In this document: one piece after another, positions 57,081 through 64,000 of the stretch
Position numbering within the stretch: the stretch's first letter is position 1
How the letters are laid out: each line of letters begins with the position of its first letter
NCBI GenBank assembly: GCA_949290355.1
Contig: CASERN010000011.1
Span: 310,001 to 374,000 of the forward strand
Length of the DNA stretch: 64,000 nt
Direction of reading: 5' to 3'
Source of the DNA: an uncultured bacterium
GTDB lineage: Bacteria > Cyanobacteriota > Vampirovibrionia > Gastranaerophilales > Gastranaerophilaceae
Notes under the pieces: model-generated
The model's input: only the letters and a program-made list of their open reading frames with translations
Databases searched by the model: none
What the model was told of the DNA's origin: nothing
Program-made: the position numbers and the translations under genes

Positions 57081-57512
57081 TATGTTTTTTTGTATGATTT
57101 ATTTAAAAATTTTATAGGATTCCGACTTTATTTGATAAAACTTCCAACTTATATAATTTAAATTTTATTAAATTTCATTAAATTTTGTTTAATTTTTATA
57201 TAAAAAGCTCTTCTTAAATTTCAACAAATTTTCAACAATGTCCTGTCCCAAAAATCCTGAACTGTGTCTAAATTCCCGCCATTTAAGGTTTTGAGACACT
57301 GCCCTGTTTTAGACATTGACGGACAGTAATCGGACTTTTTTGCCAGTTCAGGAATTTCATTTTTAGCGATTTCCGACTAAAAAAATCAAGATATATTTGA
57401 AACACACCCCTATTAGTTCAAAAAAATCAAATTCCTGCAATGTCTGTTCAAATGTATTAATCTTAACGTGAAACTATAGCAATAGTGGGGAAAAGTTAAA
57501 AATATGTAAAAC
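57081..57512. other. Gene-free region between marR and the tRNA-fMet remnant
   Basis: No gene is seen. It is AT-rich to 57240 and then has a more GC-balanced stretch (57241-57440) with the CAGTTCAGG-type repeat in both orientations (near 57255 and 57342) and repeated GACA-type words. It may be decayed mobile DNA. Confidence 0.4.
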
Positions 57513-57551: not shown

Positions 57552-57561
57552 GTCTTTTAAA

Positions 57562-57606
57562 TGGTTGCGGGAGCTGGATTTGAACCAACGACCTTCGGGT
57601 TATGAG
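57562..57606 (-). other. 3' fragment of tRNA-fMet (left attachment site)
   Basis: From the anticodon loop (CTCATAA) to the encoded CCA this matches an initiator tRNA: CCCGAAGG, GGTTCAAATCC, CTCCCGCAACCA. The 5' half is missing; upstream of 57606 the sequence is unrelated. This is the classic mark of an integrase using a tRNA gene, with the intact tRNA expected at the far right end of the element, outside the window. Confidence 0.82.
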
Positions 57607-57656
57607 GAGTCCTTCGGGTTGCCCAACCCGTAACGGTTTTTCACGATTTACCACGA
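57592..57656. other. Putative attL core and arm sites
   Basis: CCTTCGGGTT occurs at 57592 and 57611. The second copy starts a perfect inverted repeat CGGGTTG-CC-CAACCCG (57615-57630), the shape of a tyrosine-recombinase core. Direct repeats of CACGATTT follow (about 57642 and 57652), as expected for integrase arm-binding sites. Confidence 0.55.
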
Positions 57657-57789
57657 TTTGGCACTAATTTTTATGAGAATTTACTTTGCTTAACTAAGTT
57701 GATTATAATTTGTTAAACTCATGCGTAGTGGAATGTGTTGTAAGTTATGTAAAAAGTTTTTTAATGATGGCTTTTAATTTTCTTAATTA

Positions 57790-57798
57790 TGCTAGAAT
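57790..57798 (+). promoter_or_regulatory. Extended -10 promoter of the hamA-like gene
   Basis: TGCTAGAAT (TG-n-TAGAAT) ends 7 bases before ATG 57806, with no ribosome binding site. It is the same leaderless layout as chromosomal genes, so the element is adapted to this host. Confidence 0.62.
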
Positions 57799-57805
57799 AA
57801 ATGTA

Positions 57806-58519
57806 ATGTATAAGATAAAGTCCTTAAAGAAATTAGAAAAAGCTGATTGTGATATTATAAAAACAGACTGTACTGTTTATAGCATATATGTTCAAGTTAC
57901 AGATATTAATAAAATTGCAAAAGAAATATCTAGTGTTATACAAGATACTTGTTGGATTAATAATTTGTTAGATGAAGATGATATTGATTCATATCTTACA
58001 AGAGCAGAACAAACAATTAAATATATAGTGGAAGACATTTTAAATAAAGTAGAGAATGATGTATCTTCTGATTTTGGAGAATATTTAATATCTAATGTTT
58101 CACAGATGACACTTGTAGATCGTCTAAATCATGAAAGAATTCCGTTAGCAGAGTTATGGAAAGAACAAAAAAGTGGAAATCCTGGCTTTGATTTTCATTC
58201 CTTCAGTCCAAATGATTTTTTAGTATATGGAGAAGCAAAGTACAACGCAAAAAACAATCCATATTCAGTAGCGATAGGTCAAATAAATCATTTTTTAGAA
58301 ATTCAAAAAGATATACAAGAGTATGCAGATTTAAAACGAATATTCTCAAAAGTTTCTTCTCGGCATAAGAAAAATAGTAATAAAGCATTTGTGGCATCTT
58401 TTTCATTAAATGCAAAGGATAATGAAGATATCTTGAGAAAGGCTCTAGAATGTGAAGAATTACAGAATTTAATGAAATATCCAGAACTGTATATAATTGG
58501 GGTAGAAGTATGCCAATAA
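57806..58519 (+). CDS. HamA-like nuclease (DUF1837-type) of a Hachiman-like system
   Basis: This 237-aa protein has the features of a PD-(D/E)xK nuclease: Glu92 in DFGEYL, Asp129 in GNPGFDFHS, and E-x-K at 143-145 in YGEAKYN. The spacing and the GEAK signature match HamA (DUF1837) of Hachiman antiphage systems. The downstream helicase overlaps it by 10 bases. The frame opens at 57710 (TTG), but the promoter and the domain both point to ATG 57806. HamA degrades DNA when HamB detects damage. That role is known for the family and inferred here. Confidence 0.62.
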   Translation: MYKIKSLKKLEKADCDIIKTDCTVYSIYVQVTDINKIAKEISSVIQDTCWINNLLDEDDIDSYLTRAEQTIKYIVEDILNKVENDVSSDFGEYLISNVSQMTLVDRLNHERIPLAELWKEQKSGNPGFDFHSFSPNDFLVYGEAKYNAKNNPYSVAIGQINHFLEIQKDIQEYADLKRIFSKVSSRHKKNSNKAFVASFSLNAKDNEDILRKALECEELQNLMKYPELYIIGVEVCQ

Positions 58520-60864
58520 GAAAAATAATTAAAAATGAAAATGAAGCAAGAAATTATTTATTGGAAATTATAGATGATATACATAAAAATGGTCCAACTA
58601 ATGCTATAAATTTAGAAATGCTTGCTTATATAAAGCACTTTTATCCAGAGACTTTTAAGGAAAAGGAAAATTTGCTATTATTAGAAATGGGATTGTTTTA
58701 TAAACCTTCTAATATTACTTCATTTAAAGAAAAAATATATTCTATATTTTCGGAAATAATAAAAAATAAAACAAATCAGTCTTATACTCCAGTTCAATAT
58801 AATATGGTGTCTAAAATTAAAAATAACAAAATTTTCTCATTCTCAGCTCCAACTAGCTCTGGAAAGTCTTTTTTATTTATGCAGCTAATAAAATCTTGCC
58901 AAGGAGATATAGTGATTGTTGTTCCCTCTAGGGCATTAATTGCTGAATATACTCATAAAGTATTAAATATAGTAAAAGATAACAATGAAATTTTAGTATT
59001 ACAATTTATTGAAAATGTGAATAAATTGCATACAAAAAGACGTATTTTTATTGTTACTCCTGAACGAGGAAAAGAATTATTTGCATATAATAATTCTTTT
59101 GATATTGAGATGTTTTTATTTGATGAAGCACAAATCTCAGAAGAGCCTGTTAGAGGAATGAAGTTTGATACTTTTGTTCAAAGGGCTGAAAAGCTATTTC
59201 CAAATGCCAAAAAAGTATTTGCACATCCGTTTATTAATAATCCAGAAGCCCAATTATATCGTAATAAATTAGCAAGAAATAGTTTACAATCAAAAGTCTA
59301 TAATCAATATTCTGTAGGCAAGATTTATATGAGTTATATCGCAAAATTGAACACTTTTTTTTATGCTCCACCACTAGGCATGCGACGGACAGTATTACAT
59401 AGAGCAACTACTTTTGATCCTATTTCACATATTTTAAATAATAATGGTGCTATATTAATATATACCTCAAAAAGCGGAATATATTCTCATCAATATCTAA
59501 ATAAATACAAGAAATATGTTGATATGTGTCCTAAATTAGAGAATGAGGAAGCAATTAAATTAATTGATTCTTTAAAAGAATATATTGGTTCAAACAATAA
59601 AGAAAAACTCTCAAAATTAATTGAAATGATGGCGCGAGGAATTGTCATTCATCATGGTTCAATCCCCTTAAAGGGAAGACTTCTTATTGAAGAATTTGTT
59701 AATAAAGGCTATGCCAAAATTTGTTTTTCAACTTCAACACTTTTACAAGGAATAAATATGCCCTTTGATGCCGTTTGGATAGATTATTATCATTTTGGCA
59801 ATAGTGATAAAGATATATTAGCTCTAAAAAATTTAGTTGGAAGAGCTGGTAGAAGTAATTCTTTAAATGAATTTAATTATGGATTTGTAATAATAAATGA
59901 TAGTAGTAGACGTAGTTTTTTTAAACGTATTCGTCAAAATGTTTTTATATCAGAAAAATCATTATTGGAAACAACTAATATAAATAATGTCGAAGAAGAT
60001 TTGCAAGATATTGTAGAAGCTGTTATGAATAATACTTTTGATGATGAACTTCAAATTACTAAAACTCAAAAGGAACGTTTAGAGAAACAAGACATAATTC
60101 CTCATATAGAATATGTTCTGACAAACTTAATTAAGGATAATAATGAAGCAATAACAGCAGAAGAATATTATGATATCAATAAGATAGAGCGTCAAAAATT
60201 AAAAGATTCTTTTAAAGCTATATTTTGTCAACATTTAAGACGAAATCATTTAGAAACAAATGAAGAACGTATCTTAAGCGCAAGTATACCTATATTATTG
60301 TGGCGTATTCAAGGGCGTTCTTTTAAACAAATAGTAGCAAATAGATTTTTATATGTTACTAGATATAAGGAAAGAAATGTATTAAAAAAGCAATTAGACA
60401 ACAACGAAATTACAATAGAACAATTTAAGACAAAATTGGATGCTTTAGAGTTAATAAAAACCCCACAGGCTCAGCCTATACCAAACAAATTGGTAGGATA
60501 TTTCCCACTATTTGGGTATAAAGCGAGATTAAATGATTTTGATTATGATTTATTAGTTTACGATACATATGATTATATGGATAAAGTTATATCATTGTCA
60601 TTGTGTAATCCAATTGCGGCTGCTTTTAAAATTTATTATGAACATACTAAAAATGAAAAAGCCTTTGCTTTATCAAATTACATACGTTATGGTACGAATG
60701 ATAACAAAGAAATTTTGCTGTTAAAATATGGTTTTAATTTTGAAGACATTGAGTGGCTCAAAGACTATATTGTAAAAATTGATGAAAACGAAATTATTTT
60801 TAATGAAAAAATTTCAGAACTAGACCACGAAAGATATGAAATAATACAAAGGTATATTTATTAG
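58510..60864 (+). CDS. HamB-like superfamily 2 helicase of a Hachiman-like system
   Basis: This 784-aa protein has SF2 helicase motifs: Walker A APTSSGKS (113-120), Ia VPSRALIAEY, II DEAQ (205-208), then HHGSIPL (381-387), motif V STSTLLQGINMPF (407-419) and motif VI NLVGRAGRS. The Ski2-like layout with a C-terminal unique domain matches HamB. It overlaps the nuclease gene by 10 bases and has site GGGGTAG before its ATG, so the pair is made together. Other nuclease-helicase defence pairs are possible. The name needs a profile search. Confidence 0.66.
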   Translation: MPIRKIIKNENEARNYLLEIIDDIHKNGPTNAINLEMLAYIKHFYPETFKEKENLLLLEMGLFYKPSNITSFKEKIYSIFSEIIKNKTNQSYTPVQYNMVSKIKNNKIFSFSAPTSSGKSFLFMQLIKSCQGDIVIVVPSRALIAEYTHKVLNIVKDNNEILVLQFIENVNKLHTKRRIFIVTPERGKELFAYNNSFDIEMFLFDEAQISEEPVRGMKFDTFVQRAEKLFPNAKKVFAHPFINNPEAQLYRNKLARNSLQSKVYNQYSVGKIYMSYIAKLNTFFYAPPLGMRRTVLHRATTFDPISHILNNNGAILIYTSKSGIYSHQYLNKYKKYVDMCPKLENEEAIKLIDSLKEYIGSNNKEKLSKLIEMMARGIVIHHGSIPLKGRLLIEEFVNKGYAKICFSTSTLLQGINMPFDAVWIDYYHFGNSDKDILALKNLVGRAGRSNSLNEFNYGFVIINDSSRRSFFKRIRQNVFISEKSLLETTNINNVEEDLQDIVEAVMNNTFDDELQITKTQKERLEKQDIIPHIEYVLTNLIKDNNEAITAEEYYDINKIERQKLKDSFKAIFCQHLRRNHLETNEERILSASIPILLWRIQGRSFKQIVANRFLYVTRYKERNVLKKQLDNNEITIEQFKTKLDALELIKTPQAQPIPNKLVGYFPLFGYKARLNDFDYDLLVYDTYDYMDKVISLSLCNPIAAAFKIYYEHTKNEKAFALSNYIRYGTNDNKEILLLKYGFNFEDIEWLKDYIVKIDENEIIFNEKISELDHERYEIIQRYIY

Positions 60865-62057
60865 TTTTTCAAATAGACATCCTCCATTTTCTCCAACTCC
60901 TGTTCTGCAAAGTCGGGAATTACATGCCCGTAAATGTCCATAGTGATTTGAATACTTGCGTGTCCGAGTAGTCTTGATACTACCATTGGTAGAATTCCAC
61001 TTTCTAAAGCTCTTGTTGCAAATGTATGTCGCATTGCATGAACATTCCTGTGTGGAATACCTAATTTCCTTTGAATTCTACTAAAAGCATCTAAAAAAGT
61101 TCCTGTATCTGTAAAATATCCGTCCTGACGTGGAAATACAAGGTTGAGTTTACTGTAATAGTCCTGTCCTAATTTCTTTTTGGTAATCTCCTGTTGTATT
61201 TTATATTGAGCTAACTCATTCATTATTGCTGGCAAAATACTAACAACACGATTAGAAGTTTTAGTTTTAGTATTATATACAAAACCTAAAATTGTTTTTG
61301 TGTCAGTATTTTTACTAAAATTTTTATTCCTTTGCACCTGTTTATTTATTCTTACGGTATTTCTATCAAAATTTACACAATCCCAAGTCAAACCAAGTAA
61401 TTCTCCAGCTCTAAGTCCAGTGAAAAAGTCAAATTTAATAGCCATACCATAATAATGTTTAGAACATTCTTCCATAATTCGTTCTTGTTCTTCTCTAGTA
61501 AAGACCTCTATTTCTTTTTTACCTTCGCGTATTAATTTTACTGTTGATAATGGATTTCTAATAATTTCTCCTCTTTTTAGTGCAAAATTAAGGCAACTAC
61601 TCATAACTAGATGTATATTTTCAACAGTTTTTTTTGATAAACCTCCTTTCCCTGTTAATTTTCCATAGCGGTAGAGATAATTATAAAAAGTTTGAATATC
61701 ATCTCCTGTTAAATTTGCTAATGGAATATTCCCTAGATGTGGTATTATATGTCTACGAATAATCATCTCATAACTTTGACTTGTTGATTCTCTTAATCCA
61801 TAGATTGCAGTTCCATAAAACCATTTTTCAAAATACTCTCCAACCTTAATACTCTTTGAACTTATATCAATCCCTGCATGATGTTTTTCCATTAAATCTT
61901 TTAAGAGTAGTCTTGCTTCTTTTTCGGTTTTTGCCCTGCAAGATTTAAATACTCTGTTACCTTTAACATCATAACCTATTTGAAATTTCGCAATCCATTT
62001 TCCGCTTCGCGATTCTTTAAATACGCTACCTTCACCATTACTTCTTCTTTTTGCCAT
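60861..62057 (-). CDS. int: Tyrosine site-specific integrase
   Basis: The 398-aa protein has an N-terminal arm-binding domain (GSVFKESRSGKWIAKFQIGY), a SAM-like core-binding domain (about 70-170) and a catalytic domain with Arg216 (GLRAGELLGL), His340/Arg343 (HAMRHTFATR), His366 (LGHAS) and Tyr376 (DIYGH). It is the Tn916/phage type common in low-GC bacteria. It presumably inserted the element at tRNA-fMet. Its start overlaps the stop of the serine recombinase by one base. Confidence 0.93.
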   Translation of the reverse strand: MAKRRSNGEGSVFKESRSGKWIAKFQIGYDVKGNRVFKSCRAKTEKEARLLLKDLMEKHHAGIDISSKSIKVGEYFEKWFYGTAIYGLRESTSQSYEMIIRRHIIPHLGNIPLANLTGDDIQTFYNYLYRYGKLTGKGGLSKKTVENIHLVMSSCLNFALKRGEIIRNPLSTVKLIREGKKEIEVFTREEQERIMEECSKHYYGMAIKFDFFTGLRAGELLGLTWDCVNFDRNTVRINKQVQRNKNFSKNTDTKTILGFVYNTKTKTSNRVVSILPAIMNELAQYKIQQEITKKKLGQDYYSKLNLVFPRQDGYFTDTGTFLDAFSRIQRKLGIPHRNVHAMRHTFATRALESGILPMVVSRLLGHASIQITMDIYGHVIPDFAEQELEKMEDVYLKN

Positions 62058-62638
62058 TACGCAATTCCCTTTCTTTCCTCTTTTACAAAATTGTAGAACG
62101 TATTAGTTTTTAGTTTTAATAATTCACACGCCTTTTTTGCAGTAATTTTGCGCCAAGACCAATCGTTATAAATCTCTTGCCAGTTATCAGGTTTTTTAAT
62201 TTTCTTTCGACCTTTGTATTTACCTTCTTTTTTCGCAACGGCTATTCCATCCTTTTGGCGTTCTAAAAGATTTGCTCGTTCAAATTCATAAATTGCACCA
62301 AGCATTGTAACCATTAGCTTACCTGCAGGCATGCTTGTATCTAATTTTTCTTTTATGCTTATAAGTTTTACTTTTTTATTTTCTAGAATATCTATGATAT
62401 TGAGTAAGTCTTTGGTACTTCTAGCGAGCCTTGAAAAATCTTTGACATAAACAGTATCGCCCTCTCTAACATAATCCAGCATATTTTGAAGTTCGGGGCG
62501 ATTTGTATCTTTAGCACTTCGTTTTTCTGTAAAAACTTTGGCAAATTCTAAATCTTTCATTGCTTCCATTTGACTTTCATAATTTTGTTCTTCTGTACTT
62601 ACTCTTATGTAAGCAAAGTTAAATCCTTTCGTAGTCAT
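62057..62638 (-). CDS. Serine recombinase (resolvase/invertase family)
   Basis: The 193-aa protein has the catalytic Ser14 in YIRVSTEEQN, Arg70/Arg73 in KDFSRLARST, the long E-helix region (GKLMVTMLGAIYEFERANLLERQ) and a C-terminal helix-turn-helix (ITAKKACELLKLKTNTFYNF). It could resolve multimers or invert a segment within the element. The ribosome binding site AAAGGAG is present. It is coupled to the integrase. Confidence 0.92.
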   Translation of the reverse strand: MTTKGFNFAYIRVSTEEQNYESQMEAMKDLEFAKVFTEKRSAKDTNRPELQNMLDYVREGDTVYVKDFSRLARSTKDLLNIIDILENKKVKLISIKEKLDTSMPAGKLMVTMLGAIYEFERANLLERQKDGIAVAKKEGKYKGRKKIKKPDNWQEIYNDWSWRKITAKKACELLKLKTNTFYNFVKEERKGIA

Positions 62639-63184: not shown

Positions 63185-63754
63185 TTAATCCGCAGGTAGC
63201 CTAAAGCGACTATCATGTCTGTTATTATTGTGAAAATAAAGACCTTCTTTTTGCTTGGTTAAAACTTTACGCATTTTCTTTAAATCAAAATCAATTGTAT
63301 TGGTATAATCGTCTACAAATCTGAATGTTGCAGATTGCCTAACCGCATATTGTAAGAAATATATTGGGTTTTGAGTAGTTATATCATAAGCTCGTGATGC
63401 TTCTGCACCATATTTTTTAGTTATGCTTTCAACAATTTTGTTCGATATTCTTTTTTCTTGACCTGTATAAACAATTATGATGTGCAAGTGTGGCATTACT
63501 GTTTCTGGCGGTTCAAAAAGTTTAAGTTTAGAAACAGGTTTTCTGATAGGGCGTCCTTTTCTGCCATTATGAAACATTACATATTCGCCAAATCTTAAAC
63601 TTAAATTGCTTACACAAAATATGCAGGCAAAAGGCAGGTTTACTCTTTTGGCAAATCTATCCATAACCATTTTTAAACGATTTGCTTCTTTTTCTGCCTC
63701 TTTCATTGTCTTAAATTTAATTGAGTGTTCTATATTTATAAATTTAATATCCAT
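63185..63754 (-). CDS. HUH-type replication or mobilisation protein
   Basis: This 189-aa protein contains VMPHLHIIIVY, the His-hydrophobic-His metal motif (His89, His91) of HUH endonucleases, followed at about 40 residues by IYFLQYAVRQ with candidate nicking Tyr (132 or 136). That suits a rolling-circle Rep or small relaxase. At 189 aa it is short and has no helicase domain. A basic region (GRKGRPIRKPVSK) could bind DNA. It overlaps the next gene by 19 bases. Confidence 0.65.
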   Translation of the reverse strand: MDIKFINIEHSIKFKTMKEAEKEANRLKMVMDRFAKRVNLPFACIFCVSNLSLRFGEYVMFHNGRKGRPIRKPVSKLKLFEPPETVMPHLHIIIVYTGQEKRISNKIVESITKKYGAEASRAYDITTQNPIYFLQYAVRQSATFRFVDDYTNTIDFDLKKMRKVLTKQKEGLYFHNNNRHDSRFRLPAD

Positions 63755-63993
63755 TCTTTAATCTCCTTTATTTGTCTGGTAGTTAATCTTAATTTTTTGC
63801 TATTAGCGATAGCCCATTTTTTGTAATCGCTGTAAATTATATATTTTCTTCCGAGATTATCTTCTTTTAATAAGCTGTTAAAAGTTTTATCTTTATCTAG
63901 CCATTCCTTTATTTTTACAACGGAATAAATAAGTAAATGATTGGCAAGTGCGTAAATAACTTGATGATAGCCAATATGACTTTTATCTGACAC
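63736..63993 (-). CDS. Small protein at the window edge (85 aa, may be partial)
   Basis: A soluble, Lys-rich protein that I do not recognise. Its frame runs to a GTG at 63993 and has no stop before the window ends, so it may start further right. It is upstream of and overlaps the HUH gene by 19 bases. It could be a small DNA-binding partner (the tail LTTRQIKEIKEW looks helical). Confidence 0.5.
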   Translation of the reverse strand: MSDKSHIGYHQVIYALANHLLIYSVVKIKEWLDKDKTFNSLLKEDNLGRKYIIYSDYKKWAIANSKKLRLTTRQIKEIKEWILNL

Positions 63994-64000
63994 TTCTGCT

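Follow-up and report, generated by a model that had tools for sequence, protein, structure and literature searches.

In the window (the whole 64,000-nucleotide stretch of DNA that we analyzed), two genes on the same strand lie between an attachment site and an integrase (Table 1). A preliminary description had read them as a Hachiman-like antiphage pair, hamA and hamB, with reading frames of 237 and 784 amino acids that overlap by 10 bases, and the coordinates agree with this. The overlap suggests translational coupling. A promoter scan 5' of hamA gave matches no better than chance.

Table 1. Features of the hamAB locus and of the part of the integrative element that lies within the window.
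Feature	Coordinates	Strand	Description
Left attachment core	57562..57606	.	45 bp, identical to the 3' end of tRNA-Met
att-proximal segment	57607..57743	.	CACGATTT-type repeats; alignment of five elements; 81-91% identity
hamA-like gene	57806..58519	+	237-aa ORF from ATG; PD-(D/E)xK nuclease (predicted); E92, D129, E143, K145; G142-E-A-K
hamA/hamB overlap	58510..58519	+	10 bp, from ORF coordinates
hamB-like gene	58510..60864	+	784 aa; Ski2-like SF2 helicase; APTSSGKS motif I, DEAQ box, NLVGRAGR motif VI; N-terminal helical bundle
Tyrosine recombinase/integrase	60861..62057	-	398 aa; Pfam Phage_integrase 6e-25
Serine recombinase (resolvase/invertase family)	62057..62638	-	193 aa; Pfam Resolvase 2e-42; PHROG DNA invertase
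Element backbone protein	63185..63754	-	189 aa; HLHIIIVY (HUH-like) motif by eye
Element backbone ORF	63736..64000	-	133 aa; interrupted by window end, runs on to 64137

The pair had also been placed on an integrative element, and this is borne out by the 45-bp repeat, the recombinase, and an empty site. An intact tRNA-Met with the second copy of the repeat lies just past the end of the window (67005-67081 in window coordinates), and in a relative (G016), the left flank, the tRNA-Met, and the right flank are contiguous. From the repeat and the empty site, the element is about 9.44 kb, from 57562 to about 67050, so it is larger than was visible at first and ends about 3 kb past the window. (We rejected another candidate for the empty site, in G057, as its left flank stops short of the tRNA.) The integrase gene is convergent with hamB, and their stop codons overlap. 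Beyond 64137, the element encodes an excisionase-like HTH protein, a PDZ-like protein, and an HTH regulator, up to the tRNA-Met. The att-proximal segment is conserved between elements with differing cargo, and its CACGATTT-type repeats are probable arm-binding sites for the integrase. The 189-aa backbone protein has no match in Pfam, NCBIfam, or PHROG. Its HLHIIIVY motif resembles those of HUH replication or relaxase enzymes, so it is possibly a replication or mobilization protein and may reveal how the element is mobilized. Immediately to the left of the element is a short intergenic sequence (about 57380-57452) that recurs many times, with identities of up to 100%, in genomes of the genus.

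For the 237-aa protein, the four residues that were proposed to form a PD-(D/E)xK site (Glu92, Asp129, Glu143, and Lys145) are present at those positions and are invariant in all 76 aligned relatives. W50, S96, P113, N125, F128, G142, and F163 are also unchanged in these 76 HamA partners, and Q159 is kept in 73 of them. In particular, every one of the 76 has the D-GExK motif (D129 and G142-E143-x-K145), which is required for the nuclease activity of HamA (PMC12799240; PMC12278908).

Whether this protein is a HamA was harder to establish from profiles. It has no match in Pfam, PADLOC, NCBIfam, or PHROGs, and this includes no usable match to PF08878 (DUF1837) or to PADLOC's HamA. Among its 76 relatives, PF08878 weakly matches two (best 0.0017) and one PADLOC HamA1 model weakly matches six (best 5e-5). 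A search of PDB sequences with the protein or with its alignment gave cytochrome c noise as the top matches. (We also discarded a match in G275, with E = 5e-4, which was to a glycosyltransferase-like ORF.) We took the lack of a PF08878 match to reflect what the models can detect and not the mechanism; comparisons of folds and of profiles to profiles are more sensitive tests of homology to HamA.

We used the alignment of the 76 partners to build an AlphaFold2 model of the 237-aa protein (pLDDT 93.8, pTM 0.91). When we compared this model to the PDB with Foldseek, the only matches with E < 0.001 were 8vxy_A (E = 6.2e-5) and 8vx9_A (E = 2.2e-4), both with a probability of 1.00, and both are HamA from the Hachiman system of E. 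coli. The TM-score to the solved HamA is only 0.48-0.49. The preliminary description had named a fold outside HamA as the result that would count against it; instead, the solved HamA is the sole fold match at this threshold. When we aligned the compact alignment to a broad HamA alignment with hhalign, the probability was 80% and the score was 44.8, with the GE, D, and GEAK in register, while 60 column-shuffled controls had scores of at most 23.1 and probabilities of at most 2.3%. Small subsets of HamA gave no signal (probabilities of 1-23%). Because only the broad alignment gave a profile signal, the assignment to HamA is carried by the fold match. Given that Foldseek found only HamA at E < 0.001, that hhalign scored above the shuffled controls, and that one PADLOC HamA1 model weakly matches 6 of the 76 relatives, we accept the 237-aa protein as a homolog of HamA.

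The helicase is easier to classify. PADLOC's HamB1 matches it at 7.4e-56 (188 bits), all of the best matches are to HamB, and the next match to anything else is far weaker. NCBIfam's Hel308 gives just 57 bits, as against a cut-off of 1200. The host genome also encodes a housekeeping Hel308-like helicase, and the two proteins sort in opposite ways: the HamB profile gives 180 bits for the 784-aa protein and 90 for the housekeeping helicase, while the Hel308 profile gives 42 and 197 bits, respectively. Profiles of HamB recognize the second gene of the pair, but the HamA models in Pfam (PF08878) and PADLOC do not see the first, so the reading could not have been confirmed by an HMM search alone.

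We also built a tree of 52 helicases, including nine Hel308-like proteins and 15 helicases that are encoded, in the same lineage, at loci with a PF08878 match. The compact type forms one clan (support 100/100). Of those 15 helicases, 13 group with this clan (99/95), and the nine Hel308-like proteins stand apart. The compact clan is set apart by a branch of 2.05 changes per site. (The other two of the 15, L158 and L159, have long branches, and their placement is unsure.) The predicted structure of the 784-aa protein (AlphaFold2, pLDDT 90.4) is most similar to HamB in the PDB (8vxa, 3.4e-17), with Hel308 and Pol theta nearly as strong, so the family cannot be read from the fold alone. Ahead of RecA1, the model has five helices (residues 2-8, 10-27, 32-44, 46-59, and 72-88). 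An N-terminal helical bundle is the part of HamB that docks HamA, and it is absent from other Ski2 helicases (PMC12278908). The five modeled helices would match the HamA-docking bundle of HamBs, as expected. Past residue 550, the model is almost wholly helical, and no OB-like C-terminal barrel is apparent. We know of no indication that this domain of HamB is universal in Hachiman systems. The profiles and the tree place the 784-aa protein in the HamB family and not with Hel308; a repair helicase was the other outcome that the preliminary description had raised.

To see how widespread the pair is, we scanned 84,980 genomes with the helicase alignment, which found 103 relatives, and we kept 80 loci. 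These span about ten phyla and at least 80 species, with hosts from the Gastranaerophilales, Bacteroidota, Bacillota, Pseudomonadota, Campylobacterota, Elusimicrobiota, Verrucomicrobiota (Akkermansia), Chlorobiota, Balneolota, and Bdellovibrionota, among others. The preliminary description placed the pair in a poorly studied lineage, which is right for the host (Gastranaerophilales), but members of many phyla have this subtype. At all 80 loci, an ORF with GE(A/S)K lies upstream of the helicase, so the pairing is not due to chance. In nearly all of the relatives, the two genes overlap by 1-35 nt, most commonly by 4 or 7. Across 51 pairs, distances between HamAs and between HamBs are correlated (r = 0.91; none of 2000 permutations was as high, and the permuted maximum was 0.17), which, as the permutation ignores relatedness, shows that HamA and HamB are inherited together rather than that they are in contact. 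By these comparisons, compact hamAB behaves as an obligate pair whose two genes have diverged together.

Intact compact systems were found in 5 of the 292 genomes in our sample of the phylum, and PF08878 matches in 19. When we searched plasmids for the 237-aa HamA with tblastn and scanned viral contigs, we found no match. Searching with the helicase instead (tblastn) identified relatives in phages, and these have HamAB-like pairs. Two such pairs are on phage records (Anaerosphaera phage PV036460 and MT835668; L206 1701-5280 and L207 992-5115), where they are annotated just as hypothetical proteins or are not annotated. In another relative (L162, G200:C116), the compact HamB is broken into fragments, with a stop codon, so this copy has decayed. 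Four genera of the family have near-identical compact hamAB together with type I restriction-modification genes (hsdM/hsdR) and a small integrase (L009, L010, L011, and L012), which suggests recent horizontal transfer. Among the flanks of compact relatives that we sampled (without counting), we saw type I restriction-modification, SIR2, and TmtA genes.

Related elements carry other genes in place of hamAB. A sister element (L179, in G049) is 96.3% identical over 60889-67085 and 86% identical over 57555-57743, and it has LmuA-, MC3-, and LmuB-like genes instead. Another element (L161, in G134), whose integrase and att segment are 94% and 91% identical to those in the window, has a different Hachiman system in the opposite orientation; PF08878 matches its HamA at 20 bits, which is below the cut-off. 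Comparing these two elements to the window shows that what has been exchanged, about 57744-60866, corresponds precisely to hamAB. In six more distant elements, whose integrases are 70-73% identical, the same place holds yet other cargo: a KAP NTPase; a CBASS cyclase and NucC; PDC-M22; PD-Lambda-4; beta+cll; or a pair of unnamed genes. Across these elements (L161, L179, and L208-L213), the defense cassette lies between att and the integrase, in either orientation. In L211 (3445-5142, in G164), the slot holds two genes, of 249 and 315 amino acids, with no match in Pfam or PADLOC at E ≤ 0.001. By their position in the slot, they are candidates for new defense genes. In other species of the genus, unrelated elements with other integrases occupy the tRNA-Met site; one (L177) encodes a restriction enzyme, AbiH, and TIR, and another (L178) encodes a type III restriction-modification system. 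The tRNA-Met locus (67005-67081) is an integration hotspot.

We consider it highly probable that the pair is a compact and divergent Hachiman system, carried as cargo by a tRNA-Met integrative element of about 9.4 kb, and that HamB gates HamA and so aborts infection. The original reading as Hachiman is supported by the match to the HamA fold, by the HamB profiles and tree, by the invariant D-GExK, by the N-terminal bundle of HamB, by the pairing at 80 of 80 loci with correlated distances, and by the defense cargo that fills the slot in related elements; the role of compact hamAB in antiphage defense is what we infer by homology. Counting against this reading are the missing profile matches of HamA, its low TM-score to the solved HamA, and a short HamB that has a smaller N-terminal region, a DEAQ box, and no apparent OB-like barrel. 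In E. coli, HamB surveys DNA, and a free single-stranded end leads to ATP hydrolysis and to the clearing of cellular DNA by HamA (PMC12278908). Given the conserved catalytic sites and the helical bundle, this scheme is likely for the compact pair as well. HamB would keep HamA inactive while it surveys intact DNA. If HamB engaged a free or single-stranded end, from phage replication or DNA damage, then its ATP-driven movement would activate HamA, whose D-GExK site would degrade both phage and host DNA, and the infection would be aborted. The formation of a complex, the sensing of DNA damage, the activation of the nuclease, and abortive infection are all presumed from homology to the HamAB of E. 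coli (PMC12278908). The shorter HamB, the lack of an apparent OB-like barrel, and DEAQ in place of DEGH could alter this scheme.

It is improbable, in our view, that this nuclease and helicase serve to counter plasmids or other mobile elements, or to let one element compete with another, instead of countering phages. The pair does ride on an integrative element whose slot contents are swapped, and sensing damage or replication intermediates need not be specific to phages. However, the homologous system has shown broad antiphage activity, and the other cargo of the slot is mostly of antiphage types (CBASS, Lamassu-like, and PD-Lambda). We think it very unlikely that the 784-aa protein is a DNA-repair or replication helicase (of the Hel308/Hjm type) which, along with an accessory structure-specific nuclease, serves the element's own replication or repair. 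Besides the structural similarity to Hel308 and Pol theta, there is a match at 1.4e-58 to a PHROG named "Holliday junction branch migration helicase." We set this name aside because the phage helicases that we found with tblastn resemble those of HamAB-type pairs. The profiles and the tree set the protein apart from Hel308-like helicases, and the host genome already has one of these; sister elements have the same backbone without hamAB; and the HamA fold is specific. A decayed Hachiman remnant, as in the one relative with a broken copy, is hard to credit at this locus, where both ORFs are intact and every catalytic and helicase motif is retained.

To our knowledge, no activity is known for any member of the compact clade. 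More tentatively than for the Hachiman assignment itself, we suggest that this clade may be a separate type of Hachiman that standard tools overlook in many phyla. Its sensing or regulation would then be distinct, with a DEAQ box, a smaller bundle for docking HamA, and no OB-like domain. If so, a bundle of about 90 residues and a helicase core would suffice to gate the nuclease in a minimal Hachiman. Either way, a minimal HamB could reveal which parts are truly needed to gate HamA. In the literature that we searched, which did not extend to the DefenseFinder models or to subscription papers, we found no description of a compact branch. Hachiman is a known kind of system, and the pair belongs to a compact and diverged branch of it that is not recognized by the standard protein models we tested. 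As this branch is invisible to Pfam's HamA and to most of PADLOC's HamA models, counts of Hachiman systems are probably too low. More broadly, elements that swap the contents of a slot can guide us to undescribed defense genes in this uncultured gut lineage.

Among the known systems that are close to the pair is Hachiman type I (HamA with DUF1837/PF08878, and HamB; E. coli ECOR31; PDB 8VX9, 8VXA, and 8VXY). The two share the gene order, the two-gene operon, the HamA fold, the D-GExK site, and a Ski2-like HamB with an N-terminal helical bundle. They differ in that the compact HamA is unseen by the PF08878 and PADLOC models; compact HamB has 784 amino acids instead of 1174 in E. coli (about 390 fewer), with a smaller N-terminal region; its box is DEAQ instead of DEGH; and the OB-like C-terminal barrel of E. 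coli HamB is not apparent in the model. Type II (HamABC) shares the HamAB core, and PADLOC distinguishes it from type I by HamC (PMC8565338). We found no match to HamC (DUF3223) among the neighbors that we scanned, and in the window, the att site and the integrase lie directly on either side of hamAB.

AbpAB is likewise a nuclease with an SF2 helicase, and AbpA bears a HamA domain. AbpA has 538 amino acids, with an N-terminal Cap4 nuclease domain that is required for defense (PMC10732053), whereas the protein in the window is a lone HamA of 237 amino acids with its own catalytic site and, in Pfam, no match to Cap4. The protease-HamA fusions (HamMAB) share the HamAB chassis, but D-GExK has been lost from these, which rely on a separate pro-nuclease (PMC12799240), while HamA in the window keeps D-GExK and has no fused protease. 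Finally, the element resembles other tRNA-associated integrative elements with swappable defense cargo, which also have a tyrosine integrase, an att site at the 3' end of a tRNA, and defense genes next to the integrase. It differs from them in its Gastranaerophilales backbone, in its cargo lying between att and the integrase, and in its separate serine recombinase.
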